A stretch of 46,280 bases of DNA, taken from a virus. Shown one piece after another: positions 1 through 46,280 of this stretch. The stretch lies in IMG/VR virus record IMGVR_UViG_3300038463_000298, positions 1 to 46,280 of that record; one strand, 5' to 3'. A model generated the notes under the pieces. It had not been told where the DNA came from and searched no databases. It saw only the letters and a list, made by a program, of their open reading frames with translations. The stretch's first letter is position 1; every line of letters starts with the position of its first letter. Position numbers and translations under genes: made by a program.

Positions 1-13
1 CTAAAGATCCGAA

Positions 14-119
14 AAGGAGAACTGCATGTCAGACAATACTAAAATAGTTTACGCCATGGCCTTCGTATCTCTGCTGGCGATGATTGCGATATGTATGACT
101 ACGGAGGTGCGGTGGTGAG
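14..119. repeat. Left copy of 106-bp terminal repeat
   Basis: This block is identical base for base to 45575-45680. It covers the ribosome-binding site and the whole of a 30-residue membrane protein gene. The 13 bases before it differ from those before the right copy. Two further shared blocks (115-141 with 46017-46043, and 620-718 with 46182-46280) follow in the same order, so this is the overlap of a circular or permuted molecule, interrupted by different inserts. Confidence 0.9.
26..118 (+). CDS. Small single-span membrane protein (left copy)
   Basis: Thirty residues from ATG, preceded by AAGGAG with a six-base spacer. Residues 8-24 are a hydrophobic stretch (VYAMAFVSLLAMIAICM), so an inner-membrane micro-protein is likely. 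The stop overlaps the GTG start of the next gene. An identical gene lies at 45587-45679. The family is not recognised; a role in lysis timing or membrane modification is only a guess. Confidence 0.6.
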   Translation: MSDNTKIVYAMAFVSLLAMIAICMTTEVRW

Positions 120-612
120 CGACTCATCACAGACGAAGCCGCATCGTGAGTGGATAATTAAAGGTCACACCGTTCTAATAGATGAAGAAGATTATCCAAT
201 GCTATCGAGACTTTCTTGGAACATTAGTAAAAGCAAGCGGACGTTTTATGCCGGTACTAAAATATTCATGAACGGACGTCAGCGCTCACTTCTTATGCAC
301 AGAATGATAACTGGATTTGTTGCGTCTCAGATAGATCACAAAAATCACAATGGACTCGATAACAGAAAGGAAAACCTACGACACGCTACGAAAAGACAAA
401 ACTCTATCAATCATCATCGAAAAAACAAATGGGGCTATCGGGGCGTTTATCAAAAACAGGATTCGAAAAATTTTGCATTTCAGATTTCTGTAGCTGGTCG
501 AAAAATCCATAGTAAATCAGGCTTCCCTACCCCTGAAGCCGCAGCAAGAGCTTACGACTTAGCCTGTAAGGAGTATCATGGAGAATTTGGAATTAGAAAT
601 TTTGAAGACTAA
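115..612 (+). CDS. HNH homing endonuclease with AP2 domain
   Basis: A free-standing homing endonuclease of the HNH-AP2 type common in phages; such enzymes cut alleles that lack them and spread by recombination. The HNH core is visible in IDHKNHNGLDNRKENLRHAT, followed by NSINHH. A C-terminal AP2 DNA-binding domain follows (WGYRGVY...FPTPEAAARAYDLA). The start is taken as GTG at 115, which has GGAGG upstream and overlaps the previous stop; an ATG at 91 in frame lacks such a site. The first nine residues (MSDSSQTKP) match the start of the unrelated gene at 46017, so the cassette is inserted in frame into that gene's 5' end. Right-end DNA lacks it. Confidence 0.88.
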   Translation: MSDSSQTKPHREWIIKGHTVLIDEEDYPMLSRLSWNISKSKRTFYAGTKIFMNGRQRSLLMHRMITGFVASQIDHKNHNGLDNRKENLRHATKRQNSINHHRKNKWGYRGVYQKQDSKNFAFQISVAGRKIHSKSGFPTPEAAARAYDLACKEYHGEFGIRNFED

Positions 613-850
613 ATTAAGGGATGCTGAGGCTGAGATTGCGCGCCTTAAGGATACTCCTGGAGGCAAAAGAATCTATGCAGCCATTAATGAAATCGCTAGG
701 CAATCCGAGATCATCGCGGAACTTGCGGCGGCTCTTGTCGCTTTAAACAAGTGGGCGAAAGAGAATCATGAAATGCCAGACTACAGCCAGGTTATTTTAA
801 ATGCGGATCATGCACTAGCCAAACTCGCAAAGCATCGAGGTGAGCCTTGA
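578..850 (+). CDS. Coiled-coil hypothetical protein, HNH-cassette version
   Basis: Ninety residues, with AAGGAG just before the ATG, overlapping the endonuclease end by 35 bases. From residue 15 onward (RDAEAEIARLKDTPGGKR) it is identical to the gene at the right end that starts at 46017, but its first residues (MENLELEILKTKL) are different and come with the inserted cassette. The N-terminal half is a charged helix likely to form a coiled coil. Function is unknown. It is best read as the truncated and re-started remainder of the gene the endonuclease cassette displaced. Confidence 0.7.
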   Translation: MENLELEILKTKLRDAEAEIARLKDTPGGKRIYAAINEIARQSEIIAELAAALVALNKWAKENHEMPDYSQVILNADHALAKLAKHRGEP

Positions 851-1035
851 AGCCGCGAGTTAGGTTCTGCTGGTATTGTGGCAGAGGCCTTCGTGGAAAT
901 AACTTCATCGAAGCAAAGCGCGACGGTCATTTAAGAATACTGCATAAGACCTGCGCGAAAAGTCCTAAACTCGTTGCGCGTGATGATGAATTACTTGAGT
1001 GGGAAGCAAACAAACACCGGGAGGATGCGGAGTGA
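847..1035 (+). CDS. Small zinc-finger-like protein
   Basis: Sixty-two residues from a TTG that overlaps the previous stop (TTGA). CWYCGRGL near the N-terminus and HKTC near residue 34 give a CxxC...HxxC arrangement that could bind one zinc ion. The C-terminal part is acidic and helical. Family not recognised. Confidence 0.6.
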   Translation: MKPRVRFCWYCGRGLRGNNFIEAKRDGHLRILHKTCAKSPKLVARDDELLEWEANKHREDAE

Positions 1036-1139
1036 GTGAGCGAGACTGGCAAGGCGCATTGGTCTGTTTAGGACTAGTCGCCGTAATAATCATAATTGGA
1101 GTTGGCGGAACGATGTTGTTTGAATGGGTGATAGGATGA
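1032..1139 (+). CDS. Small single-span membrane protein
   Basis: Thirty-five residues from GTG with GGAGG upstream, overlapping the previous stop by GTGA. Residues 9-28 (ALVCLGLVAVIIIIGVGGTM) are one strong transmembrane segment; the N-terminus MSERDWQG is polar. It belongs to a run of tiny membrane proteins in this arm. Function unknown. Confidence 0.6.
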   Translation: MSERDWQGALVCLGLVAVIIIIGVGGTMLFEWVIG

Positions 1140-1318
1140 CCGACTCAGACGAAACAATCATGGCACTTCTGGATGAATGCTTGGCCTACTGGCGGGAAAG
1201 AATAAGAAGTTTTCTTATTCGAAACGAAATGTATCTTTTAAACGGACCGCTAGGTGTTGAAGAGGACTTTAGAGAACTTTTAAAATTAGTTCATGTGAGA
1301 GAGCTTGAAACCAATTAA
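1136..1318 (+). CDS. Hypothetical 60-residue protein
   Basis: Starts at the ATG that overlaps the previous stop (ATGA). It is predicted to be soluble and mostly helical, with an aromatic, charged middle (ECLAYWRERIRSFLIRNEM). It lies directly upstream of the DNA polymerase gene and overlaps it by 14 bases, which suggests translational coupling. No family is recognised. Confidence 0.55.
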   Translation: MTDSDETIMALLDECLAYWRERIRSFLIRNEMYLLNGPLGVEEDFRELLKLVHVRELETN

Positions 1319-3395
1319 GCGCATTACCTTCGATTTTGAGACTAGGTCGTGCTCAAATTTAAAGGCGGAGGGGGCGTTTAAATACTCACTCGACCCAACT
1401 ACGCAGCCGACATGCTTGGCGTTTAAATTCTATGGAAATCCAAAGGTCTACTTTTTAAACTTTGAAGTCGTTAACCGCCATTGGCGAGACCAGTCGATAA
1501 AACTTCAAGAAATGTGGGTGAAAGCGATCGTCGAGGGCTATCAGTTTTCGGCTCACAACGCGTTTTTTGAAAGATGTATTTACGAGAACATCTTGGTGAA
1601 GAGGTACGGTTGGCCGTCGATTCCGTTTCACTACTACCGCTGTACAGCGGCGAAAGCTGCGGCGTGTGCGCTACCTAGAAACCTCGAAGGCGCCGGTGCC
1701 GCGATGAAACTCACTACTCAAAAAGACAAACGCGGCTACGTTGCGATGATGCTGACCTGTAAACCCACCAAGAAATGGAACGCTTGGAGAAAACTTCAAG
1801 ACGACTATCATTCAGGGAAAAAGCTTTTAAGAAAGCGAATGGAAAAACTAATTCACGAAGGTGAGCCAAAGAAGTTCTTAGATGCCTCGGATAACCCCGA
1901 AGTTTGGAACGTCCTTTATGAGTACTGCAAAATCGATGTTCGCACTGAAGAACTACTTGACCAGTCGCTCCCAGACCTAAACAAAGAAGAACAAGAGATT
2001 TGGTTTCATAACCAACGCCTTAATTGGCGGGGTCTCCCAATTGACATCCCAACGGTCAAAAAGATCGTGACAATAATGGAAGCCGAATCAAAGAAGAAAT
2101 TAAAGGACCTCGACTCCCTCACGATGGGCCTCGTGACGAAACCAGGTGCTCGTAAAAGCATTTTAGATTTTCTCGCCCTCGAAGGTATCGTGCTCCCAGA
2201 CATCAAGTCTAAGACCGTTGACGACGCTATAAACGGAGGCAAGCTTTCAGGCGACATGAAAGCACTCCTAGAAATTCGCCGCGCTTTGTCGAAAACCTCC
2301 ACCAAGAAGTACCAGGCTTTTCTTAACCGGGCGATGCCCGATGGGCGTTGCCGTGACATCCTGCTTTACCACGGGGCCTCCACGGGCCGCGATACCGGCA
2401 CCGGCATTCAGCCCCACAACTTTCCAAGAGGTGCTATCAAGTTAGATAAAGACCGCCCTTATGAGCTGGTCGACAACGTCATAGAGCTAGAGCCTGAAAT
2501 GCTTCAACTCCTTTACGGCGAAAGTCTGGCCGTCCTTTTCTCGTCGGTACTAAGGAACATGATCATACCGAGTGCTGGTAAAGAGTTGTTCGTTGCCGAT
2601 TTTAGTAAAATCGAGGTCGCCGTTCTTTGGTGGTTGGCTGACAACATTCCAGGCTTAAAGGTTTTACGTGACGGAAAAGACCCCTACATCTACCAAGCGA
2701 TGATGAACACAGGCAAAAAGTACGAGGACATCACCGAAGAAGAACGTCAGCTCGGCAAAGCGCAGATTCTTGGTGGGGGATTTGGAATGGGGTGGAAGAA
2801 GTTTCAGACGACAGCTTTTGATATGTACCGCCTAAAACTAACCGACGAGCAATCTCAAGACGCCATTTCAAAATATCGAACCGCAAATGCAGCAGTTCCA
2901 CTTCTTTGGAAAGCTTATGAAAACGCAGCGATTTCAGCGATTGAAAACCCAGCTTCGCTTCCTAACGTCGGTAAGTGCATGTTTAGAGTCACCAAGGGTT
3001 TCTTATGGGTGCAGCTTCCTTCGGGTAGGCGCATTGCGTACCGGGAGCCGCAAATCACCATGAGAGAAACTGAGTGGGGGCCTCGTAAGACCTTAGAGTT
3101 TTGGGCCGTGAATTCGAAAACAAAGAAATGGGCTGTCGAGCGTACCTGGGGCGGAACGTTGACCGAGAACATCGTCCAAGCATCGGCCCGAGATTTAATA
3201 ATGCCCGCGATGGTTCGCTTAGAAGAAAAAGGTTATCTGTCACTACTTATGGTTCACGATGAAGCGCTTTGTGAAAAACCATTTGGTGAGGGGTCAATTG
3301 ACGAGTTCGTTAAAATCCTATGTAAACCGCCTTTGTGGGCAAAAGGTTTGCCGCTTGAAGCGAAGGGTTGGAAAGGTCCGAGGTACCGAAAATGA
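1305..3395 (+). CDS. Family A DNA polymerase with 3'-5' exonuclease domain
   Basis: Replicative phage polymerase of the Pol I type. The N-terminal DnaQ-like proofreading domain shows ExoI D10-E12 in FDFETRS, ExoII N85 in SAHNAFFE, and ExoIII Y207/D211 in EYCKIDVRTEE. The polymerase domain shows motif A around D432 (VADFSKIEVAVLWW), motif B from R481 and K485 (RQLGKAQILGGGFG) and motif C at H651-D652 (LMVHDEALCE). At 696 residues it is full length for phage enzymes of this kind. The start is a TTG overlapping the previous gene; the Shine-Dalgarno is weak, so coupling is likely. After circular joining it is near the end of the plus-strand replication arm. Confidence 0.95.
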   Translation: MKPIKRITFDFETRSCSNLKAEGAFKYSLDPTTQPTCLAFKFYGNPKVYFLNFEVVNRHWRDQSIKLQEMWVKAIVEGYQFSAHNAFFERCIYENILVKRYGWPSIPFHYYRCTAAKAAACALPRNLEGAGAAMKLTTQKDKRGYVAMMLTCKPTKKWNAWRKLQDDYHSGKKLLRKRMEKLIHEGEPKKFLDASDNPEVWNVLYEYCKIDVRTEELLDQSLPDLNKEEQEIWFHNQRLNWRGLPIDIPTVKKIVTIMEAESKKKLKDLDSLTMGLVTKPGARKSILDFLALEGIVLPDIKSKTVDDAINGGKLSGDMKALLEIRRALSKTSTKKYQAFLNRAMPDGRCRDILLYHGASTGRDTGTGIQPHNFPRGAIKLDKDRPYELVDNVIELEPEMLQLLYGESLAVLFSSVLRNMIIPSAGKELFVADFSKIEVAVLWWLADNIPGLKVLRDGKDPYIYQAMMNTGKKYEDITEEERQLGKAQILGGGFGMGWKKFQTTAFDMYRLKLTDEQSQDAISKYRTANAAVPLLWKAYENAAISAIENPASLPNVGKCMFRVTKGFLWVQLPSGRRIAYREPQITMRETEWGPRKTLEFWAVNSKTKKWAVERTWGGTLTENIVQASARDLIMPAMVRLEEKGYLSLLMVHDEALCEKPFGEGSIDEFVKILCKPPLWAKGLPLEAKGWKGPRYRK

Positions 3396-3607
3396 ACCAC
3401 ACTCAGATAGTTTGTAGCTATAAGCTCTTCGAGTACTGTCTTCACCGCTACAAAAAACGTGAAGTGATCGCCGATAAGTTCGTTGAATTCAATGATTTTT
3501 ATTTTATGAATCGAAAAGGCAAAGTACGAATTGTCGTCAATAAAACGCAAGTTTGGGTTCCCCACCCGATGCACGGTTGGCCCACCATTGTAAGGCGAAG
3601 GGGTTAA
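3392..3607 (+). CDS. Hypothetical 71-residue basic protein
   Basis: Starts at the ATG overlapping the polymerase stop (ATGA). It is rich in basic and aromatic residues (HRYKKREVIADKFVEF, FYFMNRKGKVRIVV). It is the last gene of the plus arm, and its TAA overlaps the stop of the convergent lysis gene. No family recognised. Confidence 0.55.
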   Translation: MNHTQIVCSYKLFEYCLHRYKKREVIADKFVEFNDFYFMNRKGKVRIVVNKTQVWVPHPMHGWPTIVRRRG

Positions 3608-3813
3608 GGGGCCTCAGCCGCTGCGGCCTGTTCACATCTTAAAAGTCTAGCCGCTAAATCTTGAACGTCAGCGTCCGGTAAACACGCCATGACCTTACCC
3701 GGGATGATTTCCACAAACTGCCAATGAACTGGATTTGGCGCCGCCAATGGTGGCGCTGAAACGCAGCTACTTATTAAAAAGAGCGTTGAGGCTAGTAGCG
3801 TCTTTATTATCAA
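3604..3813 (-). CDS. Rz1-like outer-membrane spanin lipoprotein (candidate)
   Basis: Sixty-nine residues from a TTG with GAAGG upstream. An N-terminal signal (IIKTLLASTLFLISSC) ends in a lipobox-like Cys17, followed by a Pro/Ala-rich stretch (SAPPLAAPNPVHW), which resembles o-spanins. It overlaps the 59-residue gene at 3767-3946 by 47 bases in another frame, an arrangement typical of spanin pairs. It is the last gene of the minus arm, after endolysin and a holin candidate. The assignment rests on lipobox, size and position. Confidence 0.6.
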   Translation of the reverse strand: MIIKTLLASTLFLISSCVSAPPLAAPNPVHWQFVEIIPGKVMACLPDADVQDLAARLLRCEQAAAAEAP

Positions 3814-3946
3814 AGGCAGCCTTCACTTTCACAAGTTGGTCTTTAACGGCCACTTCGGCCTGTGCATCGGCGATGGCTTTTTCAACGCTTTTAATGAGCG
3901 CTAAGATTTGCGGCAAACATTGAATCAGCGTAACGATCGAACCCAT
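3767..3946 (-). CDS. Small membrane/coiled-coil protein, possible inner spanin partner
   Basis: Fifty-nine residues from ATG with GAAAGG upstream. Residues 3-18 (SIVTLIQCLPQILALI) are hydrophobic and the remainder is a charged helix (KSVEKAIADAQAEVAVKD). The gene overlaps the lipoprotein gene downstream, as inner and outer spanin genes often do. It is short for an i-spanin, so a different lysis-associated role is possible. Confidence 0.5.
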   Translation of the reverse strand: MGSIVTLIQCLPQILALIKSVEKAIADAQAEVAVKDQLVKVKAAFDNKDATSLNALFNK

Positions 3947-3957
3947 TTCAGCCTTTC

Positions 3958-3998
3958 AAAAAGCAAGGTACCGACGTAACGGGAGCTACGTCGGTACC
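3958..3998 (-). terminator. Hairpin terminator or attenuator between holin candidate and spanin genes
   Basis: A perfect 12-bp stem, GGTACCGACGTA (3967-3978) pairing with TACGTCGGTACC (3987-3998), with an 8-base loop. Read on the minus strand it is followed by TTGCTTTTTG. A second smaller hairpin (CCCAG...CTGGG, 4003-4024) precedes it. It lies after the 112-residue gene stop and before the 59-residue gene. Confidence 0.65.
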
Positions 3999-4033
3999 CG
4001 CGCCCAGAGTCCTAAGACGCTGGGGATGTAAAC

Positions 4034-4372
4034 TTAAACGCTTGGGTTTGAACCCAAGAACTTAGCGACTGCGAGCACAACACTCGAAACGCTTTGAAGC
4101 CAGCCCGGCTCACTTTTAGAAAGACTTGAAAACATTTGTTGAACCGCGCTCAATGCAATATTGAGGCAAGCAACAATTGAAATCACGAGTGCGATAAATC
4201 CTGCACTAAGAAACGAAGACGCAGCGGGAGCTGCCGATACAACTGCGGCTGCGACAGGTGCGACAACGGCGGCAGCAGGTGCGACAACGGCTGCGGGTGC
4301 GGCTTGTGAGTGAGCCATAAACGCATAGACCCAGATAGTAACGGCCATTACGGTAAGACATAGATTTTTCAT
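4034..4372 (-). CDS. Holin candidate with signal/transmembrane segments
   Basis: A 112-residue protein with an N-terminal hydrophobic segment (LCLTVMAVTIWVYAFM), an Ala/Val/Pro-rich linker, and a second hydrophobic segment (LSAGFIALVISIVACLNIALSAV) before a short C-terminus. AAAAGGGGAA precedes the ATG. Its place directly after the endolysin and its two-span topology suggest a holin or an exported pore-forming protein. No specific holin family is recognised; the first segment could instead be a cleaved signal peptide. Confidence 0.55.
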   Translation of the reverse strand: MKNLCLTVMAVTIWVYAFMAHSQAAPAAVVAPAAAVVAPVAAAVVSAAPAASSFLSAGFIALVISIVACLNIALSAVQQMFSSLSKSEPGWLQSVSSVVLAVAKFLGSNPSV

Positions 4373-4432
4373 TTTATATTCCCCTTTTGGTTTAAGTATG
4401 TTTTAGAACTTATCGGCAATTCAAGAGGGCCG

Positions 4433-5170
4433 TTAAACCCTCGACTTTTTAACTTTTATAGGTGCCGCGTCAACGGCCACTTCCGGCACTGGCAAAGGCT
4501 CAGCGGCCGCTACTTCACTCGGCCATCTTACGAAATCGATGAACTGCCTAGAAAAAATAGAGACTTGTACTTGGTGAGATTGATTGCCCCCTAAGCAGGC
4601 CACAACATTGTCATCGACGATATGGTCACAAAATGTTACATGGTCTGCGTGTACACCTTTTTTGCCTTCCCAGTTGAAGCCGACGATTGCGCCCGGTTTA
4701 AGATCGCAAGGGACGCCAAAGTTTCGAAACGACTCAGCGGCAGCGTTATGAGGACTTTTAAAGCCCGATTCTTCAAGAGCGGCACAAGCCGTCGCTGCAC
4801 AGCCGGGGGCCATAACGCCGTCAAGGCGCCCATAAGAAGTGTGGCTGAAAACCTCGTTATCAAAATCAGTCGCTTTTGCACCCGATTGTTCAACCTCACC
4901 AATGTGAGATTTCATCCAGGCCATCCAAGGCACCGGCCCGTCTTGAGGCATAACGATTTGGCCGACAAGTGCTTTAGTGATAGCGTTTTGAGTCGCATCA
5001 TCGACGACGCCCGTGATCGGGAGTGAATGGACCGATTGGAAAACTTCAACCGCTGCTGAGGTTGCGTCGCCAAAGAGGCCGTCATCAACTAATTTTGCAG
5101 CACCGATTTGATTCAAATTCTTTTGCAGGTTCGTAACTGCGAACCCTTCCGAACCTTTTTGTAAAGCCAT
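4433..5170 (-). CDS. Endolysin: peptidoglycan-binding domain plus Cys/His hydrolase domain
   Basis: Residues 1-70 form a PG_binding_1 repeat (GSEGFAVTNLQKNLNQIG, DGLFGDATSAAVEVFQ) that anchors to peptidoglycan. Residues about 80-220 resemble the CHAP/NlpC-like TIGR02594 family. The likely catalytic Cys is in MAPGCAATACAAL and the His in GVHADHVTFCDH. The enzyme probably cleaves amide bonds of peptidoglycan at lysis. It has no signal peptide, so release needs a holin. The C-terminal 20 residues (KVKKSRV end) are a basic tail. It sits between a possible holin-like gene and the two-span membrane protein gene. Confidence 0.85.
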   Translation of the reverse strand: MALQKGSEGFAVTNLQKNLNQIGAAKLVDDGLFGDATSAAVEVFQSVHSLPITGVVDDATQNAITKALVGQIVMPQDGPVPWMAWMKSHIGEVEQSGAKATDFDNEVFSHTSYGRLDGVMAPGCAATACAALEESGFKSPHNAAAESFRNFGVPCDLKPGAIVGFNWEGKKGVHADHVTFCDHIVDDNVVACLGGNQSHQVQVSIFSRQFIDFVRWPSEVAAAEPLPVPEVAVDAAPIKVKKSRV

Positions 5171-5176
5171 TTTGTT

Positions 5177-5491
5177 TTAGCCCCCTATTTCATCGTTAGA
5201 AAAGTTTCTCATCTCTTCGGCGATTTGAACCCACGATGCGCCGGAAAGTTTTTTGATCGCGTAAAACGCTCGTCTTAGATCAAGTTTTAGTTTCTTCATT
5301 TCAACTTGGGACGAAACAAGTTCCGCCGTGTTTTTCTCTAAAGCGCATTTTAAATGGCTGATGCTGTCTTCAGTGATTTTCTCTTTACGCCTTAGATACT
5401 TCCAAACCATCTCGCCCGTTTTAAGTAAGAAGAGTGCTCCAAATCCTAGAGCACTTCCTTGTTCGAGTAAGAGTTTTTGAAGCTCTTCCAT
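5177..5491 (-). CDS. Small membrane-associated protein, possible holin/antiholin
   Basis: A 104-residue protein with one moderately hydrophobic segment near residues 13-30 (GSALGFGALFLLKTGEMVWK). A charged helical part follows, likely coiled coil (ISHLKCALEKNTAELVSSQVEMKKLKLDL). It lies between the tail fibre and endolysin genes with gaps of 1 and 6 bases. Position suggests a lysis role, but the segment is weak and it could be a fibre-associated protein. Confidence 0.5.
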   Translation of the reverse strand: MEELQKLLLEQGSALGFGALFLLKTGEMVWKYLRRKEKITEDSISHLKCALEKNTAELVSSQVEMKKLKLDLRRAFYAIKKLSGASWVQIAEEMRNFSNDEIGG

Positions 5492-5492
5492 T

Positions 5493-7043
5493 TTACGGCT
5501 GCCATCCGAGAACTTGAACGACGGCTTTTAAACTAAATCCGACTTGACTACCGAACCCATCGAGTGCGTTACCTACGAAGCCGTTGTTACTGCCACCTTC
5601 AAATTCTATTTTATAAGAACTGGGGGAGTAAGGAACTATGTCGGTAACCCATTGTTGGTTACCGGCCTGAACAGAAAGGAAACCAGACGCCGGGATACGG
5701 TAAGGGCTGTATGCTGTGTTAGACCCTTGCGATCCGAGCGCCGTTACAGTCGGTAAAGCGATGAGTACCGATGCACCGAAACTTCCTATAGAACTAAAAT
5801 CAAACACATAGTCCCCCGTTCCGTTTGACCCAGTACCCGTGAAGACTAGCTGATACCAAAATTCTACAGAGTCGCCGAGTCTTCTCCACATGTATTGATC
5901 GAGAGAAGTAGAACCTTTCACTGGGGCACTGTTTGATACCGCGCTGTATGCGATAGTAGCGGGCCCGGTTCCGGAAACTTTCGTAAGAGTGCCGGATGCT
6001 CCCGGTGTCCCTGTGCCAGACATGAGCATGGTGGTGGTAGAGACGATGGTGGCGGAAGCTATGTAGTTATTGCCCCCTGTACTATAGACGGCACCCGCCG
6101 TCACACTTGAGCTTGCAATCGTAAACGAGTGCGCACCTGTTGACGTAACCGCGATAGTTGAAAGTGTACTCCAACCAGTTATGGTTTCATGCTCGGCCAC
6201 TTGCCAGTTAAAACCGTCGGAGTAGAGAACAAGTTTCTCGCCGTTCGTGTACATGGCGTAGTTACCGCTAGATACTGTGCCGCCCGGTCCGTTGATAGTT
6301 TGTCCACCAGTAGTTAAAAAAGTGTACCCAACAAAGTTCGATCCGTTATGTTGGAAAAAGAACGGCTTACCCGCCCAGCCTGCGGTCGTAGCGTCAGGTA
6401 GGGTGATGTTAAAGGCCGATCCACTTAGCAAATACTTCGTATTTATAACAGCCGGATTTAAAGCACTGCTTTGCGAAACAAAACTGTCTCCAGGGATAAC
6501 CCAAGATGGTGCAGCGGCGGCTGAGCCACTGCCTGTTGAAGTTAGAACTTGTGGGACCGCCGTGGTATTTCCACCTAACCGAGCCGGGACTCCGTTCGCC
6601 AAACTATAAGAAATGTCCCCGAGAGTTGTAAACGGGTTAGAGACCATCAGTTTCCAATTGGCCGTCGATGAGAGAGCGTTGTTTGTATTGCTATTGGTGA
6701 GAGACGCGTAAATGTTTCCCGTGCCGTCTTGAGCGATACTTCCAACATAATATGTCGTGCCCGCGTCCCATTCAGCGATTCCTAACTGCATTACGTAAGC
6801 AAGCTGATAAGCGTACAAGTAGCAAATTGCGTTCATGTCTTCGATGGCCGGACTATTCCCACCAATGACTGCGCCGAACCATCCGCTTAGATAGTTTGAA
6901 AGGCTTTGAACGATCGTTGGCGTGATCGTTGTCCCTGAATATGTGGCCGGGCTTGCGGCCGCGAGACTACCGAATTCGGCAATCTGATTTGAACCGGCAC
7001 CTGACCCAAAAATCTGCTGCGTGTACCTTGAAAGCCTAGACAT
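5493..7043 (-). CDS. Tail fibre / receptor-binding protein
   Basis: A 516-residue protein rich in Ser, Thr, Gly and Asn. A conserved-looking N-terminus (residues 1-115) carries a carbohydrate-module-like motif (WDAGTTYYVGSIAQDGTGNIYASLT). Fibre-like repeats follow, and a C-terminal region without Lys-rich patches. It comes immediately after the last baseplate gene and before lysis genes, the usual location of a receptor-binding fibre. The C-terminal half probably sets host range. No chaperone gene for it is seen. Confidence 0.75.
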   Translation of the reverse strand: MSRLSRYTQQIFGSGAGSNQIAEFGSLAAASPATYSGTTITPTIVQSLSNYLSGWFGAVIGGNSPAIEDMNAICYLYAYQLAYVMQLGIAEWDAGTTYYVGSIAQDGTGNIYASLTNSNTNNALSSTANWKLMVSNPFTTLGDISYSLANGVPARLGGNTTAVPQVLTSTGSGSAAAAPSWVIPGDSFVSQSSALNPAVINTKYLLSGSAFNITLPDATTAGWAGKPFFFQHNGSNFVGYTFLTTGGQTINGPGGTVSSGNYAMYTNGEKLVLYSDGFNWQVAEHETITGWSTLSTIAVTSTGAHSFTIASSSVTAGAVYSTGGNNYIASATIVSTTTMLMSGTGTPGASGTLTKVSGTGPATIAYSAVSNSAPVKGSTSLDQYMWRRLGDSVEFWYQLVFTGTGSNGTGDYVFDFSSIGSFGASVLIALPTVTALGSQGSNTAYSPYRIPASGFLSVQAGNQQWVTDIVPYSPSSYKIEFEGGSNNGFVGNALDGFGSQVGFSLKAVVQVLGWQP

Positions 7044-7055
7044 AGTTTTTCTCCC

Positions 7056-8009
7056 CTAAGACGAAATAGCATCGGCGTATGAAAGCCAAGGCCACGTTTG
7101 AGTGTAAGTTGTGTAGTTATTAAATGGGCTCACGTTATGAGCTACCAACGAATAAGTTCTCATTCCGAAAAAGTCATTGGTGTTCGCCGCATAAATAACG
7201 GATGCGAGTTGAACCCCCATCGGCCTAAACAAGAGTCCTTCCGCCACAAGAGCACGGGCTAAGTTTTGACTCCCAACGTTTGAGCTAATAAAGTAACTCA
7301 TTCGCATATTTGAGTAGTCAAATACAAAAACCTCGTTCGGGAAGAATTCAAAAAGTAACGCTTGAATAGTAGCTAAGGAACTTCCGGCGCTGTTTTTTAA
7401 AATAGCAAATTGGATCAACGTTAAAAAGTCAGCGTCACTTAAAGTGATCGCCCCTGTTGAGAGGCCGACCGTTCTAAAAACCCCTGCATATTTTCCGAGA
7501 ACTTGTAACTGCACACCACTCGCGATGTTTGAGCCCGTGAGGTTAAACGCATTTTGAAGTGCTAAGGGTAGAGTAATATCTGTCTGTGTAACGGTTAAAG
7601 TAATCGCCACGGAACCGGAAGTCGCGAGCGTATTAGAAGTAACAGTCAAAAGGGGCGCAACCGGCGGAACTCCAGTAAAGGTCACCACAAGTCCGGCTGC
7701 GATACTTCCGGAAACTGTCACAGACCCGAGCCCCGATAAAGCTTGAAGGTCAGATTGAATAGTAGACGCTGATGCGTTCCAAGCAATCGACGAAGTCGGT
7801 AATGTCGTTTGGTTTACACCAAAGGGTGTGTAGTTTAAAACGAAAGCGCCACTTGCAGCGGTCCCTGAAAACGCAATCGCCTGAACCGTTGTCTGAGGTA
7901 AAAGCGTAGGAGTGGCGACGGCCTGGGCCGTCGCATAAGCTTTTGGCTTTTGCAAATACTGTAAAATCAGTAAGTTCGCATAATAATTTAAAAGCTGAAG
8001 TGGGGTCAT
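7056..8009 (-). CDS. Baseplate protein, gpI/DUF2612-like, with inserted domain
   Basis: A 317-residue protein. The C-terminal part (residues 145-317; ALQNAFNLTGS, ADFLTLIQFAILKNSAGSS, YSNMRMSYFI) resembles DUF2612, the Mu gp48/P2 gpI-like baseplate wedge partner found after the J-like gene. Residues about 42-141 are an extra module (VQAIAFSGTAASGAFVL, IAWNASASTIQSDLQALSG, SNTLATSGSVAITLTV) also present in the J-like protein and the sheath. It follows the J-like gene with a one-base gap. Confidence 0.75.
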   Translation of the reverse strand: MTPLQLLNYYANLLILQYLQKPKAYATAQAVATPTLLPQTTVQAIAFSGTAASGAFVLNYTPFGVNQTTLPTSSIAWNASASTIQSDLQALSGLGSVTVSGSIAAGLVVTFTGVPPVAPLLTVTSNTLATSGSVAITLTVTQTDITLPLALQNAFNLTGSNIASGVQLQVLGKYAGVFRTVGLSTGAITLSDADFLTLIQFAILKNSAGSSLATIQALLFEFFPNEVFVFDYSNMRMSYFISSNVGSQNLARALVAEGLLFRPMGVQLASVIYAANTNDFFGMRTYSLVAHNVSPFNNYTTYTQTWPWLSYADAISS

Positions 8010-8010
8010 A

Positions 8011-9690
8011 TTACGTCACCGAAATACTGGTGGTGATCGAGTTACCAAGTACGTCTGTCGCTTTAACTACGTCGGTCACGTTTGGAGTCGATCCGGCCGT
8101 GTAGGCGCCTGATGATGCATTAATAGACGCTCCGCTCGCATTCGTAGCTAACGAGTAAACGTAAGACCCGTAACCCCCGACCGCTACGAAAGTTTGAGTT
8201 CCGAGAGGTGCGATACTCAAAGTTGAGGGGGACATTTGCATTGCGATAATGATGGTATTTGGGCTCGAAACTGCAAATTGATATTTCTGCGACGTGGGTA
8301 AAAGTGTATTAGAATACCCCTCGTTATAAGTGAAAGTGATCGCTGCCGACCCGGCCGTGAGGAGCGAGTTCGAAGTCACATAGAGAAGTCCTAAAACAGA
8401 TCCGGCGTTTAGAGTGACCACCAAAGACTGACTCGAAATCGAGCCCGTAACGGTTGCGGCCGTGAGTCCCGAGACCGCTTGAATTTTGGTTTGAATCGTC
8501 GAGAGGGAATCATTCCAATTGATCGCGGCCGTTGTGTTTCCGTTATAGTTAACGACAAAAGTGCCTGATGCGGCGACGGCTGAGAGTGCGAGGGTTTGAA
8601 CAGCCCCGGTGCTAAAGCCCGCTGACGTCACCAATGTGTTCGGGTCGATTGCTTGAACGAGAGTGGCCAAAGTGTTGATGTTCACTTCGGAATAAACGCC
8701 CGGAACGAAACTAGAAACAAGCCCCGATCTAACTGCCGCGATATTTGGCGGAGTTACGCCGTTAACTGAAGTGGCCGTGAAGCTGACGAAAAGATTTTGG
8801 GCCGTAACCGAGTCCCATAAAACGATAAAGGAGCTTCCGTCCACTTGCGTGATGACGTAAGAAGTCGCTCCAAACATTCCGCAGCACGCGTTTCTTTTGG
8901 TGTAGATCGCGTTTGCGATCGACGCTGCCGCCCCAGTCCCTGCGACGATAACCCAAATCGAGTGCCCCGGCACCCCCGCAACGTTTGTTGCCGAGGTCCA
9001 GTTTTCATAAACGAATGCACTAGTGACGCCGTTGATGTTTTCAAGAGCGGCTAAGAGGCCCGCGTAGTACCCTTGACTCGCAAGAGATACCGACTGGAGT
9101 CTTCGAATTCTTAAGGCCGCATCGGTTTCAGCATTTATGCCGAGACTTGTGTAGGTGGTGGGGTTGTTGATCGAAGTTACGCCCAAAACTACAGTCACTG
9201 GAATCGTAATAGTATTTGGAGTTGTTAAAACCGCGCCGGGGTTGGCCGCTTGGAACGCATAAACTTGAGTGCCTGAAACGCCCAACTGAGTCGTTTGAAG
9301 TTGCCACTGGTTACCGGCGTTATCGGCGACCGTGAAAACAGATTGCGCAGTTTGATCAAGACCGTAGAGGTTCACAGACTGAGACATCACCAAAGTTATG
9401 TTGGTGAGGGTGAACGTGCCCGCTTGTCTTACGAGGCCGTTGATTGCGACCCGTTGATCTAAAACGTTTCCAACCGCATTATCTGGATCAAATGAGTTAT
9501 AGATTTGTGAGAGTAGGTTTGCGATGTCCAAAACACTTTGGATAAAAATCATCATCATTTGGCCGTCAGGGGAGTTTGAGGCCAAATTGATCGTTGAGCC
9601 GTAAATAGCCTCGTAAGAGGCCGTGTAGTTTGTGACTAACTCTGTTTGTGTGACGACTGTAAGACCCGTTGACGTAAGTGAATTTGGCAT
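8011..9690 (-). CDS. Baseplate J-like wedge protein with two added surface domains
   Basis: A 559-residue protein. Residues 1-350 match the Baseplate_J family (Mu gp47, P2 gpJ): an N-terminal YxxxYGSTINLASNSPDGQ segment, a middle region, and AETDAALRIRRLQS. It forms the wedge ring of the baseplate. Residues about 364-457 are the module shared with the sheath and the following protein (VQTLALSAVAASGTFVV, INWNDSLSTIQTKIQAVSG). Residues 487-559 are an Ig-like domain (GGYGSYVYSLATNASGASI, SGAYTAG) of the kind also in the protein at 16679-17434. It is longer than the plain family because of these. Confidence 0.85.
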   Translation of the reverse strand: MPNSLTSTGLTVVTQTELVTNYTASYEAIYGSTINLASNSPDGQMMMIFIQSVLDIANLLSQIYNSFDPDNAVGNVLDQRVAINGLVRQAGTFTLTNITLVMSQSVNLYGLDQTAQSVFTVADNAGNQWQLQTTQLGVSGTQVYAFQAANPGAVLTTPNTITIPVTVVLGVTSINNPTTYTSLGINAETDAALRIRRLQSVSLASQGYYAGLLAALENINGVTSAFVYENWTSATNVAGVPGHSIWVIVAGTGAAASIANAIYTKRNACCGMFGATSYVITQVDGSSFIVLWDSVTAQNLFVSFTATSVNGVTPPNIAAVRSGLVSSFVPGVYSEVNINTLATLVQAIDPNTLVTSAGFSTGAVQTLALSAVAASGTFVVNYNGNTTAAINWNDSLSTIQTKIQAVSGLTAATVTGSISSQSLVVTLNAGSVLGLLYVTSNSLLTAGSAAITFTYNEGYSNTLLPTSQKYQFAVSSPNTIIIAMQMSPSTLSIAPLGTQTFVAVGGYGSYVYSLATNASGASINASSGAYTAGSTPNVTDVVKATDVLGNSITTSISVT

Positions 9691-9698
9691 CGCTCCCC

Positions 9699-10061
9699 CT
9701 AAATGGTGCTTAGGTCATACTCGAAGCTATTAGAAAGCTGAGAGTATGTCGTTTGCACTTGATACTTTATCGTGACCGACCTAGTTGCCGGATTGTAGAC
9801 AACAGAAAGTTGAAGTCCGCCTGTCACATTGTTTGTGTTTAAGATAACTGCGGCCACTGCGAGGTTCAAGGCTGTTAGGTCTTTACCGCCCAACAAATTA
9901 AACCAATCGATGCCCGCTCCTGTGTCGAAAAAGCAATCGCCTAAAAATGAACTAAGTCTAGTTTGAATATCCTGGGCGATAGCGGCGTTTCCAGAAAGGT
10001 ATGCGCTGGTACCGATTCCAAAAACCCAATCACCATTTACGTCAAGTGCTCTTACGATCAT
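9699..10061 (-). CDS. Baseplate wedge protein, gp46/gpW (gp25)-like
   Basis: A 120-residue protein starting at an ATG overlapping the previous stop. The pattern DIQTRLSSFLGDCFFDTGAG and the C-terminal NPATRSVTIKYQV resemble the small baseplate wedge proteins placed between the spike and J-like genes in Mu-like tails. It likely joins the sheath base to the wedge. Order spike, gp46-like, gp47-like, gp48-like is conserved here. Confidence 0.75.
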   Translation of the reverse strand: MIVRALDVNGDWVFGIGTSAYLSGNAAIAQDIQTRLSSFLGDCFFDTGAGIDWFNLLGGKDLTALNLAVAAVILNTNNVTGGLQLSVVYNPATRSVTIKYQVQTTYSQLSNSFEYDLSTI

Positions 10062-10804
10062 TCGAGTAACCCCGTAATTAAAGTTTGAACTGAATTTACT
10101 GCCGATGTAAGGGCTGTCGATGCAGTCCCTAACGCCATGCCCCCGGCCTTCGCTGCTGTCTCGACAGTCGGGTTCCCTTCAAAGGCCGTCGCCGCAGTAT
10201 TGAGTGCCGTCGCTAAAGACGACAGCGCGGTCAATAGGTTCCCTAAAGCGGTACCTAAACTTGTTGAGCTGTTTAAAAGTGTGACTTTGTTGTTGCTTAA
10301 ATTAAAGCCGACTTTGGCATTTCCATTGGTGAGTATCGCGCGCGCCGTGTCATAAGAACTAAGGACGTTTGGCGTGGACTTGACTCCCACCAACGCAATG
10401 GCGTCAGAAAACGCGTGAAGCCTTGAAGAGTTGACGGGGCTCGTGGCACTTCCCGTCTTAAACCAATTGTCTATGTCCCGGTCGTTAAAGAGTAGTAGGC
10501 ACTCATCGCCTTTTGCGATGGGGAATGTGAGATTTGATTTGCCCCCGCCCAGTACTACAACAGGGCAGTCGATGGCAATTGGGTAGTTGACCTGAACCGG
10601 AACATATTGGTTCGTTGAAGAGTTTCTCTCAAAGAAAGTCTTCGTGTAGTTAACTGTTGCAACAACTGTCATCGCTGTCGAGTTAAAACTTTGGACCGTA
10701 CCCACATGGTGCGAGTTTAGCTCAAGCATGATTTCTTTTTTGAGCAAACTTAAAAGATCACTTAACGAAGGTTCATTTGTCGTGGCGTTTAAAGTAAAGC
10801 TCAC
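10058..10804 (-). CDS. Baseplate spike protein (Gp138/gpV-like N-terminal domain)
   Basis: A 248-residue protein from a GTG overlapping the previous stop (GTGA). Residues 30-140 form an OB-fold-like domain as in phage spike proteins (HVGTVQSFNSTAMTVVATV, CPVVVLGGGKSNLTFPIAKG, DECLLLFNDRDIDNW). The C-terminal third is Ala/Leu/Thr-rich and helical, unlike a beta-helical needle. It should trimerise under the tail tube and puncture the outer membrane. Confidence 0.8.
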   Translation of the reverse strand: MSFTLNATTNEPSLSDLLSLLKKEIMLELNSHHVGTVQSFNSTAMTVVATVNYTKTFFERNSSTNQYVPVQVNYPIAIDCPVVVLGGGKSNLTFPIAKGDECLLLFNDRDIDNWFKTGSATSPVNSSRLHAFSDAIALVGVKSTPNVLSSYDTARAILTNGNAKVGFNLSNNKVTLLNSSTSLGTALGNLLTALSSLATALNTAATAFEGNPTVETAAKAGGMALGTASTALTSAVNSVQTLITGLLE

Positions 10805-11703
10805 CTAGGCACCACAACTAACTTCTGAGGCCCTTGCGTTCCGTAAAAGAGTTCAACGGAAGTGATCGCGTCCCCACAAACGGCGCCCGAAATCGTGCCT
10901 CGATGTTTGACGCCTGTCACTTTATAAACACCATTGAAGTTTGCTTTTTTAGAGGTGCCTTCAGCACTTTGCAGGTTAACTAGTTGGCCCGCGACTAAGC
11001 CCGGTTCGAAAATCATGTCGAACGTCATTTTCGTAAGCTCCCGGACCGGCGTCGCAAGTAGCCCTGACGAATCATCGATCAAAGGAGTTCCGCCGGGCGT
11101 GCACTCGTTATCGCCTAAGCAGTTCACTTTTCCGCCGTCGATGAAAAACCCATTAGTACCCGTCAGCTGCGTTAGAACTTGAACGGTCGAGCCGCTGACC
11201 GCGTTTCCGCGCGGCAAGGTTCCGAGAGTAGAGACGCCGTTTTGGTCCGGATAATTGCCTATTGACCCAAGAGAAACGAAAGGGAGTGCTGACGCGACAG
11301 TTTGAAGAACGATCTTTTCCGAAGTCCCGGCGGGGAACTGCGTACTGATTTGGCCGTTATTAAACGCATATCCACCATCAAAACACTCGAGTGTAGTTAT
11401 GAAATTCGTGCCCTCACGAACCGACCAGGCTTGTGTGATGTTGCCAGTAAATACGGTCGAAAGATTTTGCCCATACCCGGCTTGTAAAATGACCGATTGA
11501 AAGATGCCGGTGTCCATAACGTTAAAGCGGATCTGGTTTCTATTTGCCGCGTTCAAGTTATAGATCCGAATTGAGCAAACGTTAGCCGAAGTTAAAGTGT
11601 TTCTAGTGATGTCGAATTCAATAGTGAACGGAAGCTCTATGGTGAGAGTCCCTCCGCTTGGAGTGCCAACTTGTAATACATAGTTGCGCCCAAACTTATA
11701 CAT
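10801..11703 (-). CDS. Baseplate hub protein (gp44/gpD-like role)
   Basis: A 300-residue protein. The N-terminus (IELPFTIEFDITRNTLTSANVCSIRIYNL) is typical of hub proteins that begin with a beta-rich domain containing IxNLN. The C-terminal motif (LVNLQSAEGTSKKANFNGVYKVTGVKHRG) matches the end of such proteins. It sits directly upstream of the spike gene, as expected for the hub that holds the spike. Confidence 0.75.
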   Translation of the reverse strand: MYKFGRNYVLQVGTPSGGTLTIELPFTIEFDITRNTLTSANVCSIRIYNLNAANRNQIRFNVMDTGIFQSVILQAGYGQNLSTVFTGNITQAWSVREGTNFITTLECFDGGYAFNNGQISTQFPAGTSEKIVLQTVASALPFVSLGSIGNYPDQNGVSTLGTLPRGNAVSGSTVQVLTQLTGTNGFFIDGGKVNCLGDNECTPGGTPLIDDSSGLLATPVRELTKMTFDMIFEPGLVAGQLVNLQSAEGTSKKANFNGVYKVTGVKHRGTISGAVCGDAITSVELFYGTQGPQKLVVVPR

Positions 11704-12053
11704 CAGGTTCCGGTCCCCGCTAAAATCTGTGCATATTCGGCGACTTCGGCTGCACTTAAAATGTAGAGAACCGCAGCACCGCTTTCAAAGTCTTGTTGTT
11801 GCGTGGCTTCGCGGTTCCCTGAAACAAAACACCCAAGTCCCCAAGTCAAAGAGTTCCGCCATTGGTTAAGCATATTAGGGCTTGTTGTGATTTGGAGTCC
11901 GTTAAGAGTAAAACTATTCCACACCAATGAAGTGATGAACCAAGCGTATTGTTGCGGGTAAAAAGCCATCGTAATGGTGGTTGAAGTGCCATCGGGCAAA
12001 ATCAAAGTTTGCGTTTGAGCCGGGGCTGAGGTGATTTGTTGTACTGCGTACAT
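11703..12053 (-). CDS. Baseplate plug protein (Pam3 gp18-like)
   Basis: A 116-residue protein, starting in a TAATG overlap. It is a beta-rich small protein (TLILPDGTSTTITMAFYPQQYAWFITSLVWNSFTLNGLQI) resembling the plug proteins placed between the Dit-like protein and hub in small myoviruses such as cyanophage Pam3. It probably closes the baseplate hub. Confidence 0.6.
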   Translation of the reverse strand: MYAVQQITSAPAQTQTLILPDGTSTTITMAFYPQQYAWFITSLVWNSFTLNGLQITTSPNMLNQWRNSLTWGLGCFVSGNREATQQQDFESGAAVLYILSAAEVAEYAQILAGTGT

Positions 12054-12931
12054 TACGCGACTCCGAAGCTTGAAGTTAGACTCGTCGCAAGACTCGGTCC
12101 CTGTACGGGCGTCGATGTTCCTAAATTAGTTGCGCCTTGTGATTGAAGAGCCGCTCTACCTTGTTGGTTTGATCCAATGGTGCCCGCAGTCGTTGAAGTC
12201 TGAGCGATTCTAATTTGTTTAAAGCTCATTTCAAAACTCGTGATGTAAGCGGTCTCGGCATCCTGGATCGGACGCATAGACTTGATTGCCATGTCGGTGA
12301 ACACGGCCCAAGGCGTTTGAACAGTGAAAAGAGTTCGACTTTGCCAAAAACCAAAGAGCTGTTGAAAAGCTTGTTGTTGCTTATTTTGGTTTGGTTCAGT
12401 TGCAATCGGAAAGCTTGAATTTCCGCTGATAACGCTTTCCCCGCCAGTGCCGTTGATCGACGACCACGAACTGACGGCTGAGTTGATAGCGTTTTGCGCG
12501 ACCTGGTAAAGCTGAAAAGCCGTGTTATAGGCGATCAACGCCGAAACTGAAAGCGAAGGCGTGTAAGCCGAGATGATCGTAAGTTTATCGGCGAGCGCTT
12601 TTACAGGCGCCAATGCCGGGGGCGCGATGTCGTTAAGTTCACCAATGAAACCGTGCGTGCTTATGATTGGTGGTTTTAAAGCGATTTGATCTTGGAGGGC
12701 CGTATTGTCCTCGATGTAGTGGTCTGTAATATCGCTTTCTAAAGCAATACTTTGTTCGCCTTCGTAGTGGAAAAGGAATGCAGGCGGCGGTTGAGCGATT
12801 GACTGCGTCCCGTCAGGATTTGGCGGATTTTGCGGTTGGTACCCGATCGTTGATTGCGGGCTTACAAGAATAAGATTCGAAAGCGCTGTTGCCGTTGTCG
12901 TAATAGGTGCGAGGGCTGATAAATTTGCCAT
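12053..12931 (-). CDS. Dit-like baseplate/tail tip protein
   Basis: A 292-residue protein immediately after the tape measure gene. The N-terminal motif (FHYEGEQSIALESDITDHYIEDNTALQDQIALKP, then ISTHGFIGEL) is characteristic of Dit-like hub proteins that follow tape measure genes in such phages. The C-terminal 60 residues are Ser/Thr/Gln-rich and disordered. It likely links the end of the tube to the hub. Confidence 0.65.
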   Translation of the reverse strand: MANLSALAPITTTATALSNLILVSPQSTIGYQPQNPPNPDGTQSIAQPPPAFLFHYEGEQSIALESDITDHYIEDNTALQDQIALKPPIISTHGFIGELNDIAPPALAPVKALADKLTIISAYTPSLSVSALIAYNTAFQLYQVAQNAINSAVSSWSSINGTGGESVISGNSSFPIATEPNQNKQQQAFQQLFGFWQSRTLFTVQTPWAVFTDMAIKSMRPIQDAETAYITSFEMSFKQIRIAQTSTTAGTIGSNQQGRAALQSQGATNLGTSTPVQGPSLATSLTSSFGVA

Positions 12932-14071: not shown

Positions 14072-14181
14072 TTGACGCCCCCTAGATTTACGAGTAGTTC
14101 AATTGCATATGTGGAAAGCCCGAAAACGGATGAGTAACGCCATGAAACTTCGTCATAAAACTTTAGGTTACTAACTCTCAT
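14062..14181 (-). CDS. 39-residue protein between tail chaperone and tape measure
   Basis: Read from the ATG inside the end of the chaperone extension, with GGGAG upstream, to a stop inside the tape measure start; it overlaps both neighbours by about 10 bases. The peptide has a compact pattern (VSWRYSSVFGLSTYAIELLV), with aromatic and hydrophobic residues rather than random composition. It may be a third tail assembly factor. No family is named. Confidence 0.55.
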   Translation of the reverse strand: MRVSNLKFYDEVSWRYSSVFGLSTYAIELLVNLGGVNCR

Positions 14182-14742: not shown

Positions 14743-14743
14743 G

Positions 14744-15199
14744 TTAAGTCAAAACCCTTACCGCTTGCGAAAACTTCATTTCATACATCGCAATCGATTG
14801 ATCGGTTTCGCCTTCAACGTTCGACTTCCCTTCAATCGATTTCTTAAAGATACCGCCCGAAAGAATGTAGGTATCTGAGCCGACGTTACCTGCACCATCA
14901 CCAAGTTTCTTGATGAACGTGCCGGTCAAGAGAACCGTGCCCGAGAAGTTGGCGTTTTGTTGAGCGAGCAAGTTTTGTAAGAACTTGTCGTCATTGCCGC
15001 CGCGAATGATTCGCATCTTTACTTCGCACTGTGCGCCCGAAGCGTTGTAGCCGAAAATCGCGTTCCCGTTCTTTCCGGTTTTCACGTTTGCGATGTCATT
15101 AGGGTAAGTCAGCTCGACAACGTTCCCATCGGCGAAATCCGATAGGGGTTGGTTGTTTAAGACGACTGTGTCATTTCCAGATAATGCTATTTTTGCCAT
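14744..15199 (-). CDS. Tail tube protein (DUF3277-like)
   Basis: A 151-residue, beta-rich protein directly after the sheath gene. The pattern VVLNNQPLSDFADGNVVELTYPND and VRTGKNGNAIFGYN-like segment, then SGGIFKKSIEGKSNVEGETDQSIAMYEMKF, matches the DUF3277 tube family that pairs with DUF3383 sheaths. It polymerises as stacked hexamers inside the sheath. Confidence 0.85.
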   Translation of the reverse strand: MAKIALSGNDTVVLNNQPLSDFADGNVVELTYPNDIANVKTGKNGNAIFGYNASGAQCEVKMRIIRGGNDDKFLQNLLAQQNANFSGTVLLTGTFIKKLGDGAGNVGSDTYILSGGIFKKSIEGKSNVEGETDQSIAMYEMKFSQAVRVLT

Positions 15200-15217
15200 A
15201 GATAAATCCTTTCAAAC

Positions 15218-40067: not shown

Positions 40068-40098
40068 CCGCCGAAAGGCAAAACCAAGGAGAACAAAT

Positions 40099-41875: not shown

Positions 41876-42475
41876 ATGGCAGCTAAAGCGCCAAAAGCAG
41901 ATAAAGAGAAATCACGACTACTAACACCTGAATTCAGAGTGAGCTACCCTCACGTCTTTAAGGCGAACGCGTTTAAAGGGGGAAAGCCTAAGTTTTCAGT
42001 CACGATGCTTTTTCCAAAGAACTCTGATTTATCACCAATTAAAAACGCAATCAAAGAGGCCAAGATTGCAAAGTTCGGAGCTGACAAAGATAGTTGGCCG
42101 GATGATCTTGAGTCGCCCGTAGTTGACGGCGATAGCCCAAAGCACGCCGATAAAGACGGCTATAAAGGGTGCTGGGCTATTAAGGCTTCAACGAATGAAG
42201 ACCAGCGTCCAGGCGTAGTGGACGAGAACGTGCAACCTATTTTAGAGCCGAGTGATTTTTACCCGGGTTGCTACGCTCGTGCTTACGTCTATGCGTATGT
42301 ATGGGAGTTTGCGGGCAAAAGGGGCGTTGGATTTATTTTAGATCATGTGCAAAAACTTCGCGACGGCAAATCATTTGGTGGTAAGAAATCGGCCGATCAA
42401 GTATTTTCGCCTGTAAACGCGGGAGCTATGAGTAGCGATGATAATGCCGACGATGTTGATGAAGACTTTGCTTAA
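41876..42475 (+). CDS. ssDNA-binding protein (DUF2815-like)
   Basis: A 199-residue protein. LLTPEFRVSYPHVFKANAF, KFSVTMLFPKNSDL and GCYARAYVYAYVWEFAGKRGVGFIL match DUF2815, phage ssDNA-binding proteins similar to T7 gp2.5. The acidic tail (SSDDNADDVDEDFA) is the usual partner-binding tail. Confidence 0.85.
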   Translation: MAAKAPKADKEKSRLLTPEFRVSYPHVFKANAFKGGKPKFSVTMLFPKNSDLSPIKNAIKEAKIAKFGADKDSWPDDLESPVVDGDSPKHADKDGYKGCWAIKASTNEDQRPGVVDENVQPILEPSDFYPGCYARAYVYAYVWEFAGKRGVGFILDHVQKLRDGKSFGGKKSADQVFSPVNAGAMSSDDNADDVDEDFA

Positions 42476-44518: not shown

Positions 44519-44716
44519 TTGATCGTCTTTTAACTTTTTTAGCATTCATTTTTGTGGTAGTTAGTTTTCTGTTTATTGTGAGGCAAAAGGTTGTGAGACG
44601 TCCGGTTATAAAAAAAGATTAAAGGCCTGGAAGAAAAGTCCACCTTTTGATTTAGAAATATGGAAAGGTTCCTGGCAAAGACCTTATTTAGCAGAACGAT
44701 TGGAGAAGGTGGCATA

Positions 44717-44717
<1 letters not shown>
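44515..44717 (+). CDS. Small membrane protein with probable -1 frameshift extension
   Basis: The zero frame encodes 35 residues (one membrane span, FLAFIFVVVSFLFIV, then RQKVVRRPVIKKD-stop at 44620-44622). Just before the stop is a run of seven A (44610-44616) read as A-AAA-AAA, a good -1 slip site. The -1 frame continues without a start codon as RLKAWKKSPPFDLEIWKGSW and ends at 44715-44717 in a TAATG overlap with the next gene, giving a 67-residue fusion. An indel or a read error in the A run is the alternative. Confidence 0.55.
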
Positions 44718-45446
<729 letters not shown>

Positions 45447-45454
<8 letters not shown>

Positions 45455-45608
45455 GGCCAAGTGCGGTATCTGTGGAGCCATCTGGAACATTATGCCCTCA
45501 GAGTTAAAGCATAGATTAAAGATCTCGAAATCGAAGAAGATATTTCGTAGTCGTGAATGTCAGAGTGAGCACTTAAGGAGAACTGCATGTCAGACAATAC
45601 TAAAATAG
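45447..45608 (+). CDS. Small zinc-finger-like protein
   Basis: Fifty-three residues. CGIC near the start and CQSEH near residue 38 could bind zinc. The start overlaps the end of the repeat protein. It runs into the right terminal repeat and overlaps the micro-protein gene by 22 bases. Left-end sequence has a different upstream context. Confidence 0.5.
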
Positions 45609-45680
45609 TTTACGCCATGGCCTTCGTATCTCTGCTGGCGATGATTGCGATATGTATGACTACGGAGGTGCGGTGGTGAG
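45575..45680. repeat. Right copy of 106-bp terminal repeat
   Basis: Identical to 14-119. After it the sequence diverges at one base (T instead of C) and enters a gene missing from the left end. Confidence 0.9.
45587..45679 (+). CDS. Small single-span membrane protein (right copy)
   Basis: Identical to the 30-residue protein at 26-118, with AAGGAG upstream. Its stop overlaps the GTG start of the next gene, which here is a different protein. Confidence 0.6.
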   Translation: MSDNTKIVYAMAFVSLLAMIAICMTTEVRW

Positions 45681-46020
45681 TGACTTCTTTACTGAAGATG
45701 ATATTGCGCGCACCTACGGAATGGGTAGGCTAGAGAAATATGACTTCCTAAACGGACTCATCCTCGAGCGGAGTAAGGTTGTTTATGGCGCACAAGCGCA
45801 CGGGCTAAACTCTTGGTGCACCAAAGAGGAAAAACAGATCGACACCCACCAAGCCAGACTAATCATGATCGAGCCGATCAAGAAAGACAGCGCTGAATCG
45901 TTACTCTCTGAGATTGTGAAGTATGATAGTCAGATCAAAATAACGGGTATCGATATCTACGAATGGCGAGCACTTCTTGAACGCGCAAGTAAACTCCTAA
46001 ACAAGCAAGGTGCGAAGTGA
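45676..46020 (+). CDS. Hypothetical 114-residue protein absent from the left arrangement
   Basis: Starts at GTG with GGAGG upstream (overlap GTGA). The first residues (MSDFFTEDDIARTYGMGRLEKYDFLN) look like an HTH-like helical start. Later parts (IDTHQARLIMIEPIKKDSAESLLSEI) are helical. The whole gene lies between two copies of GTGAGYGACT, and it is missing on the left, consistent with deletion between those repeats. Confidence 0.6.
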   Translation: MSDFFTEDDIARTYGMGRLEKYDFLNGLILERSKVVYGAQAHGLNSWCTKEEKQIDTHQARLIMIEPIKKDSAESLLSEIVKYDSQIKITGIDIYEWRALLERASKLLNKQGAK

Positions 46021-46280
46021 GCGACTCATCACAGACGAAGCCGAGGGAGATATGGGTTGTTGAGACAAAGTCGTCATATTTCATTTACGAGGATGAAGCT
46101 ACGGCAATCAAGGAATGTAGGTCACAAGCGGTATACGGAAATGCAATAGTGTTTCAGGTCGTCGAAATCAGCGCACTACGTGATGCTGAGGCTGAGATTG
46201 CGCGCCTTAAGGATACTCCTGGAGGCAAAAGAATCTATGCAGCCATTAATGAAATCGCTAGGCAATCCGAGATCATCGCG
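46017..46280 (+). CDS. Hypothetical protein, uninterrupted allele (partial at window end)
   Basis: Starts at GTG overlapping the previous stop (GTGA). It reads MSDSSQTKPREIWVVETKSS and continues in frame through RDAEAEIARLKDTPGGKR to the window end. Joined to the left end it would continue to the stop at 848-850 as one protein. The left end carries the same N-terminal nine residues and the same C-terminal part, separated by the HNH cassette. Confidence 0.65.
   Translation, partial: MSDSSQTKPREIWVVETKSSYFIYEDEATAIKECRSQAVYGNAIVFQVVEISALRDAEAEIARLKDTPGGKRIYAAINEIARQSEIIA
46182..46280. repeat. Right copy of third terminal repeat block
   Basis: Identical to 620-718 over 99 bases up to the window end. 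It marks the resumption of homology after the HNH cassette and gives a circular unit near 45,562 bases. Confidence 0.9.

Follow-up and report, generated by a model that had tools for sequence, protein, structure and literature searches.

Gene content of the contig and of its two ends

The window analysed here is an entire IMG/VR virus contig of 46,280 bp, classified in that database as linear and without end repeats. It encodes a tailed phage, with genes for terminase, portal protein, baseplate wedge, methyltransferase, helicases and exonuclease, as well as a Gp2.5-like SSB/annealing protein and a family A DNA polymerase. Early genes on the plus strand leave the window at its right end and resume at its left end. 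Comparison of window positions 1-3400 with named phages by blastn gave no match, and scanning genome contigs for the polymerase revealed no host or provirus.

An exact-match scan identified three blocks that recur at both ends of the window in the same order and on the same strand (Table 1). The lengths of two of these matches, 99 and 106 bp, exclude a chance origin, and the only other exact direct repeats of at least 20 bp in the 46,280 bp are a 23-bp pair (34554/34626) and those within a low-complexity alanine-rich gene (45171-45362). The arrangement at the left end is referred to below as allele A and that at the right end as allele B. In allele B, a small membrane-type ORF is followed by gene Y and by an intact gene X of 131 aa. 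In allele A, the membrane ORF is followed by a nuclease gene, fused in frame to the start and first nine codons of X, and then by the remainder of X; gene Y (341 additional bp in B, 45676-46016) is absent, and 478 bp of nuclease sequence stand in place of 138 bp in the 5' half of X. The three blocks, their order, the 478/138-bp difference and the extra gene had all been described in the original prediction and are correct to the base.

Upstream of the 106-bp block the two ends diverge immediately (1-13 versus 45562-45574); unless the 13-base left tip is an assembly error, this is a further difference between the alleles. This tip has no good match in the window or in the sister contigs. The sequence RTGAGYGACT occurs four times in the window against 0.37 expected, a number reached in none of 100 shuffles, and three of the four copies lie at the junctions described here. 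The GTGAGYGACT repeats are real and rare, yet they are at the same time ordinary stop/start overlaps, for proteins beginning with M/V-S-D.

Gene X has no relative among IMG/VR or named phages, and scanning IMG/VR for the exact patterns of blocks 1 and 2 returned none. Gene Y is present in the sister strain as a chimeric, displaced copy. An ORF in the more distantly related contig L022 (395-784, upstream of the exonuclease gene) is weakly similar to gene Y (44% over about 33 residues, with the motif IVMIEPI); judging from sequence similarity, Y-like genes may occur at other places in the early region.

Table 1. Features of the variable island and its borders in the window
Feature	Position	Strand	Remarks
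Shared block 1, allele A copy	14..119	+	106 bp, identical to 45575-45680; contains a Shine-Dalgarno sequence and a 30-aa membrane-type ORF (26-118)
Shared block 2, allele A copy	115..141	+	27 bp, identical to 46017-46043; contains the GTG start and first nine codons of gene X
HNH/HNN-AP2 nuclease ORF	115..612	+	165 aa, initial nine codons from gene X
A-only nuclease cassette	142..619	+	478 bp; 39% GC versus 48% for the window
Gene X remainder, allele A	578..850	+	From ORF listing and sequence; putatively translated
Shared block 3, allele A copy	620..718	+	99 bp, identical to 46182-46280
DNA polymerase, family A	1305..3395	+	PF00476, phrog_17; right border of the variable island
Gp2.5-like SSB/annealing gene	41876..42475	+	phrog_112, E 4e-44; left border of the variable interval; near polymerase in relatives
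Alanine-rich gene	44660..45454	+	Repeat tract varies between strains; adjoins gene Y in the sister strain
Shared block 1, allele B copy	45575..45680	+	Identical to 14-119
Gene Y	45676..46020	+	114 aa from GTG 45676; missing in allele A
Shared block 2, allele B copy	46017..46043	+	Identical to 115-141
Gene X, allele B	46017..46280	+	Continues in frame at 719-850, giving 131 aa
B-only part of gene X	46044..46181	+	138 bp
Shared block 3, allele B copy	46182..46280	+	Stops exactly at the contig end

The nuclease gene and the remainder of gene X

The nuclease ORF matches the Pfam family HNH_3 (PF13392; E 3e-7, 30 bits, above the cutoff of 24.8) and the PHROG HNH endonuclease family phrog_99 (E 1e-31), and it carries the motifs MHRM, DHKN and NRKENLR. 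Its match to AP2 (PF00847) is sub-threshold (E 3e-4, 21 bits versus a 33-bit cutoff), and it aligns with HNH-AP2-type ORFs along its length. Most homologous nucleases align from residue 14 onward only, and the codons of X are therefore an addition to the nuclease. The cassette takes the place of part of X and is not an interruption in a gene that is otherwise complete on either side. The ATG at 578 from which the X remainder can be read, together with the AAGGAG at 568-573, sits within the last codons of the nuclease gene.

Freestanding HNN-AP2 and IPA-HNH endonuclease genes of phages (PMC2248197, PMC10448857) share with this gene the HNN motif, a putative C-terminal AP2-like part, the location near a DNA polymerase gene and the variable presence among close relatives; HNN-AP2 genes are known to come and go among close phages (PMC2248197). 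In contrast to those genes, the cassette uses the start and nine codons of the gene that it replaces, and it replaces sequence where a clean insert would have left it in place. Genes split by homing endonucleases are also known (PMC2988022). As with nrdA/mobE of phage Aeh1 (PMC2988022), the nuclease gene lies within another gene whose remainder is separately translatable, but here no separate piece preserves the first half of X, which is lost, and X itself is an orphan gene absent from the sister strain.

Sister contigs and relatives

In a 15.3-kb contig from metagenome 3300036717 (G001, listed also as L017), window positions 45223-45511 are followed directly by positions 1004-15981, with AAGCA shared at the 45511/1004 junction. 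There are only 8 differences from the window in the 14,978 bp from position 1004 onward (99.95% identity). Because this contig joins 45511 straight to 1004, both ends of the window belong to one locus. A second contig (G002) overlaps the first by exactly 127 bp and carries window positions 15855-44578. After 44578 the sister strain has a third arrangement, in which a different segment of 0.37 kb contains one other gene, and a copy of Y with its central part replaced lies upstream of the alanine-rich gene; X, the membrane ORF and the HNH gene are all missing. The three arrangements and their junctions are observed directly.

In two more distant contigs (L021 and L022; polymerase 60-63% identical at the amino acid level), the genes for exonuclease, SSB and polymerase stand in a row with an SSB-polymerase gap of about 0.2-0.5 kb, and in Pseudomonas phage ZQG1 the SSB gene lies about 2 kb before the polymerase gene. 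The contig break of the window falls in the same interval, which argues that the contig is one lap of the genome, from allele A to allele B.

A strain-variable island in a probable mixed population

We conclude that the ends of the window are very probably two strain alleles of a single variable early-gene island, derived from a mixed population (probability of about 0.87). The original prediction had left the choice between a mixed population and true duplicated ends; its first alternative, two allelic arrangements, gains support from the sister contig, which joins the ends in yet another arrangement, and from the proximity of the SSB and polymerase genes in relatives, while the second is not supported. 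We infer from the assembly that alleles A and B co-occurred in one sample. As in the strain-variable islands described for viral metagenomes (PMC8018248), near-identical genomes (here in the backbone at 1004-15981) differ at one locus in the genes that they carry, and this is where the contig breaks. Unlike those islands, both alleles are retained on the two ends of one contig and are neither collapsed nor placed on separate contigs.

The record would then run once around a tailed-phage genome of about 45.6 kb that closes into a circle (circularly permuted or circularised), beginning in allele A and finishing in allele B of an island located between the SSB/annealing and DNA polymerase genes; a circle of the B form (719-46280) would be 45,562 bp. 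The assembly graph would have split at the island because of co-existing strains; variation among strains is a known cause of fragmented viral assemblies and of masked genomic islands (PMC8018248). Exactly 99 bp of shared sequence precede the contig end, a length that would fit an assembler k of 99, although the contigs of the sister sample overlap by 127 bp. Perfect overlaps near the largest k are usual between contigs of such assemblers (PMC7111523). The largest k would account for the stop at the right end but not for the start position at the left, and the 13 unmatched bases of the left tip count against the reading as a whole. Gene Y would have been lost or gained between the two 10-bp GTGAGYGACT repeats, and the nuclease may have been brought in by recombination, perhaps with the help of the phage's own exonuclease and annealing protein. 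Exchange at start/stop junctions would preserve translational coupling, and the X remainder would restart from its ATG, using the Shine-Dalgarno sequence inside the nuclease 3' end.

Hypervariable islands of phages, and freestanding HNH-AP2 genes close to polymerase, are already known. What the locus offers is an odd contig end that can be recognised as strain variation, that is, as ordinary phage variation and no new type of genome end, with two accessory-island alleles preserved side by side and a third in the sister strain. It also appears to be a small natural case in which cassettes are exchanged at start/stop junctions and a nuclease gene has taken the start codon of another gene.

Alternative explanations

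One alternative concerns the way in which allele A arose and can be compatible with a mixture of strains. The HNH-AP2 nuclease could be actively homing, invading allele B by cleavage near X, so that it is copied in and the flanks are co-converted. HNH-AP2 genes are a described homing class, and IPA-HNH genes have a DNA polymerase gene nearby in 29% of cases (PMC10448857). Cleavage by free-standing endonucleases takes place at a distance, and co-conversion tracts remain behind (PMC2988022). The cassette is AT-rich relative to the window. However, the cassette replaces sequence at its site, and HNN-AP2 genes have been proposed to spread randomly, without conserved flanks (PMC2248197). The 138 bp of X that allele B carries at this site are missing from allele A, which excludes homing by clean insertion, though allele A may have arisen by conversion from a donor in which the replacement was already present. 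We therefore regard active homing as conceivable but doubtful. The earlier suggestion of a homing endonuclease invasion caught in the act goes beyond what the sequences show, as allele A is not allele B plus a clean insert.

A chimeric misassembly, in which one of the ends belongs to another phage and was attached erroneously, would agree with the unmatched left tip (1-13) and with the fact that the alleles have only short blocks in common. Such an error appears very unlikely, since the shared blocks are 100% identical and in order, allele A runs into 719-15981, which matches the sister contig at 99.95% from 1004 on, allele B follows 39933-45511, a segment common to the sister contigs, and several genes differ at this locus between real contigs as well.

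A true diverged duplication, with both arrangements on one molecule as diverged terminal repeats or as a tandem of B then A, would place A and B on one contig with their blocks in the same order, as is seen, but it is highly improbable, given that IMG/VR reports no end repeats, that the right-end block matches 620-718 and not position 1, that the 99-bp match stops at the contig end with X of allele B reading on in frame from 46280 to 719-850, that the island is single-copy in the sister strain, and that terminal redundancy from headful packaging yields identical, not rearranged, copies. Joining head to tail at 46280|1 was considered and discarded, since gene X would be cut off after 88 codons; passing from 46280 to 719 keeps X whole. 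The claim of unusual genome ends should be dropped.

Start codons within AP2-HNH gene tails

The conserved 3' tail of AP2-HNH nuclease genes of phages (K-E-x-H-G-E-F; AAGGAG...CATGG) might sometimes serve as a portable Shine-Dalgarno sequence and start codon in the +1 frame, so that translation of the rest of a gene resumes after a nuclease has landed in it, with the tail left as a fossil once the nuclease is lost. We consider this unlikely. Allele A would be the intact form of the layout, while L021/L073 and L026 keep only the last AP2-tail codons, with the downstream gene starting inside them. Among 50 IMG/VR matches to the motif, this layout is absent from most of the full-length nuclease genes. 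Only 6 of the 28 matches with the CAT codon have a +1 ORF of at least 60 aa; among these six, L047 is no AP2 gene, and three come after full-length nucleases, possibly by chance. As a general rule the portable start was rejected, with so few matches having a +1 ORF; at best it is occasional.

Fossil-like AP2-HNH 3' tails with the start codon of the downstream gene inside are seen at 6996-7043 in L021 and at 6577-6640 in L026. A coiled-coil gene of L021 starts (at 7002) inside a stretch of 14 codons that matches the HNH tail (KELHGEFGIRNFKD), identical to the window at 37 of 45 bases. In L026, the similar AP2 remnant precedes the gene for a small protein containing NCPFCG.

Other differences between the strains

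The GCC-type repeat tract of the alanine-rich gene (window 45160-45385) differs between strains; the N-terminal part of its product has relatives in Xanthomonas phages, e.g. KPhi1 and XapPhi3. About 0.5 kb of the window (32172-32690) is strongly diverged from G002, with flanks that are 99.9% identical. This segment lies within a ParB/N6-N4 methyltransferase gene (32055-33329, minus strand), as if a specificity segment had been swapped. At window positions 24219-24403, G002 of the sister strain has one more tandem copy of about 141 bp, apparently in frame, within a gene for a protein of 992 aa (23829-26807).
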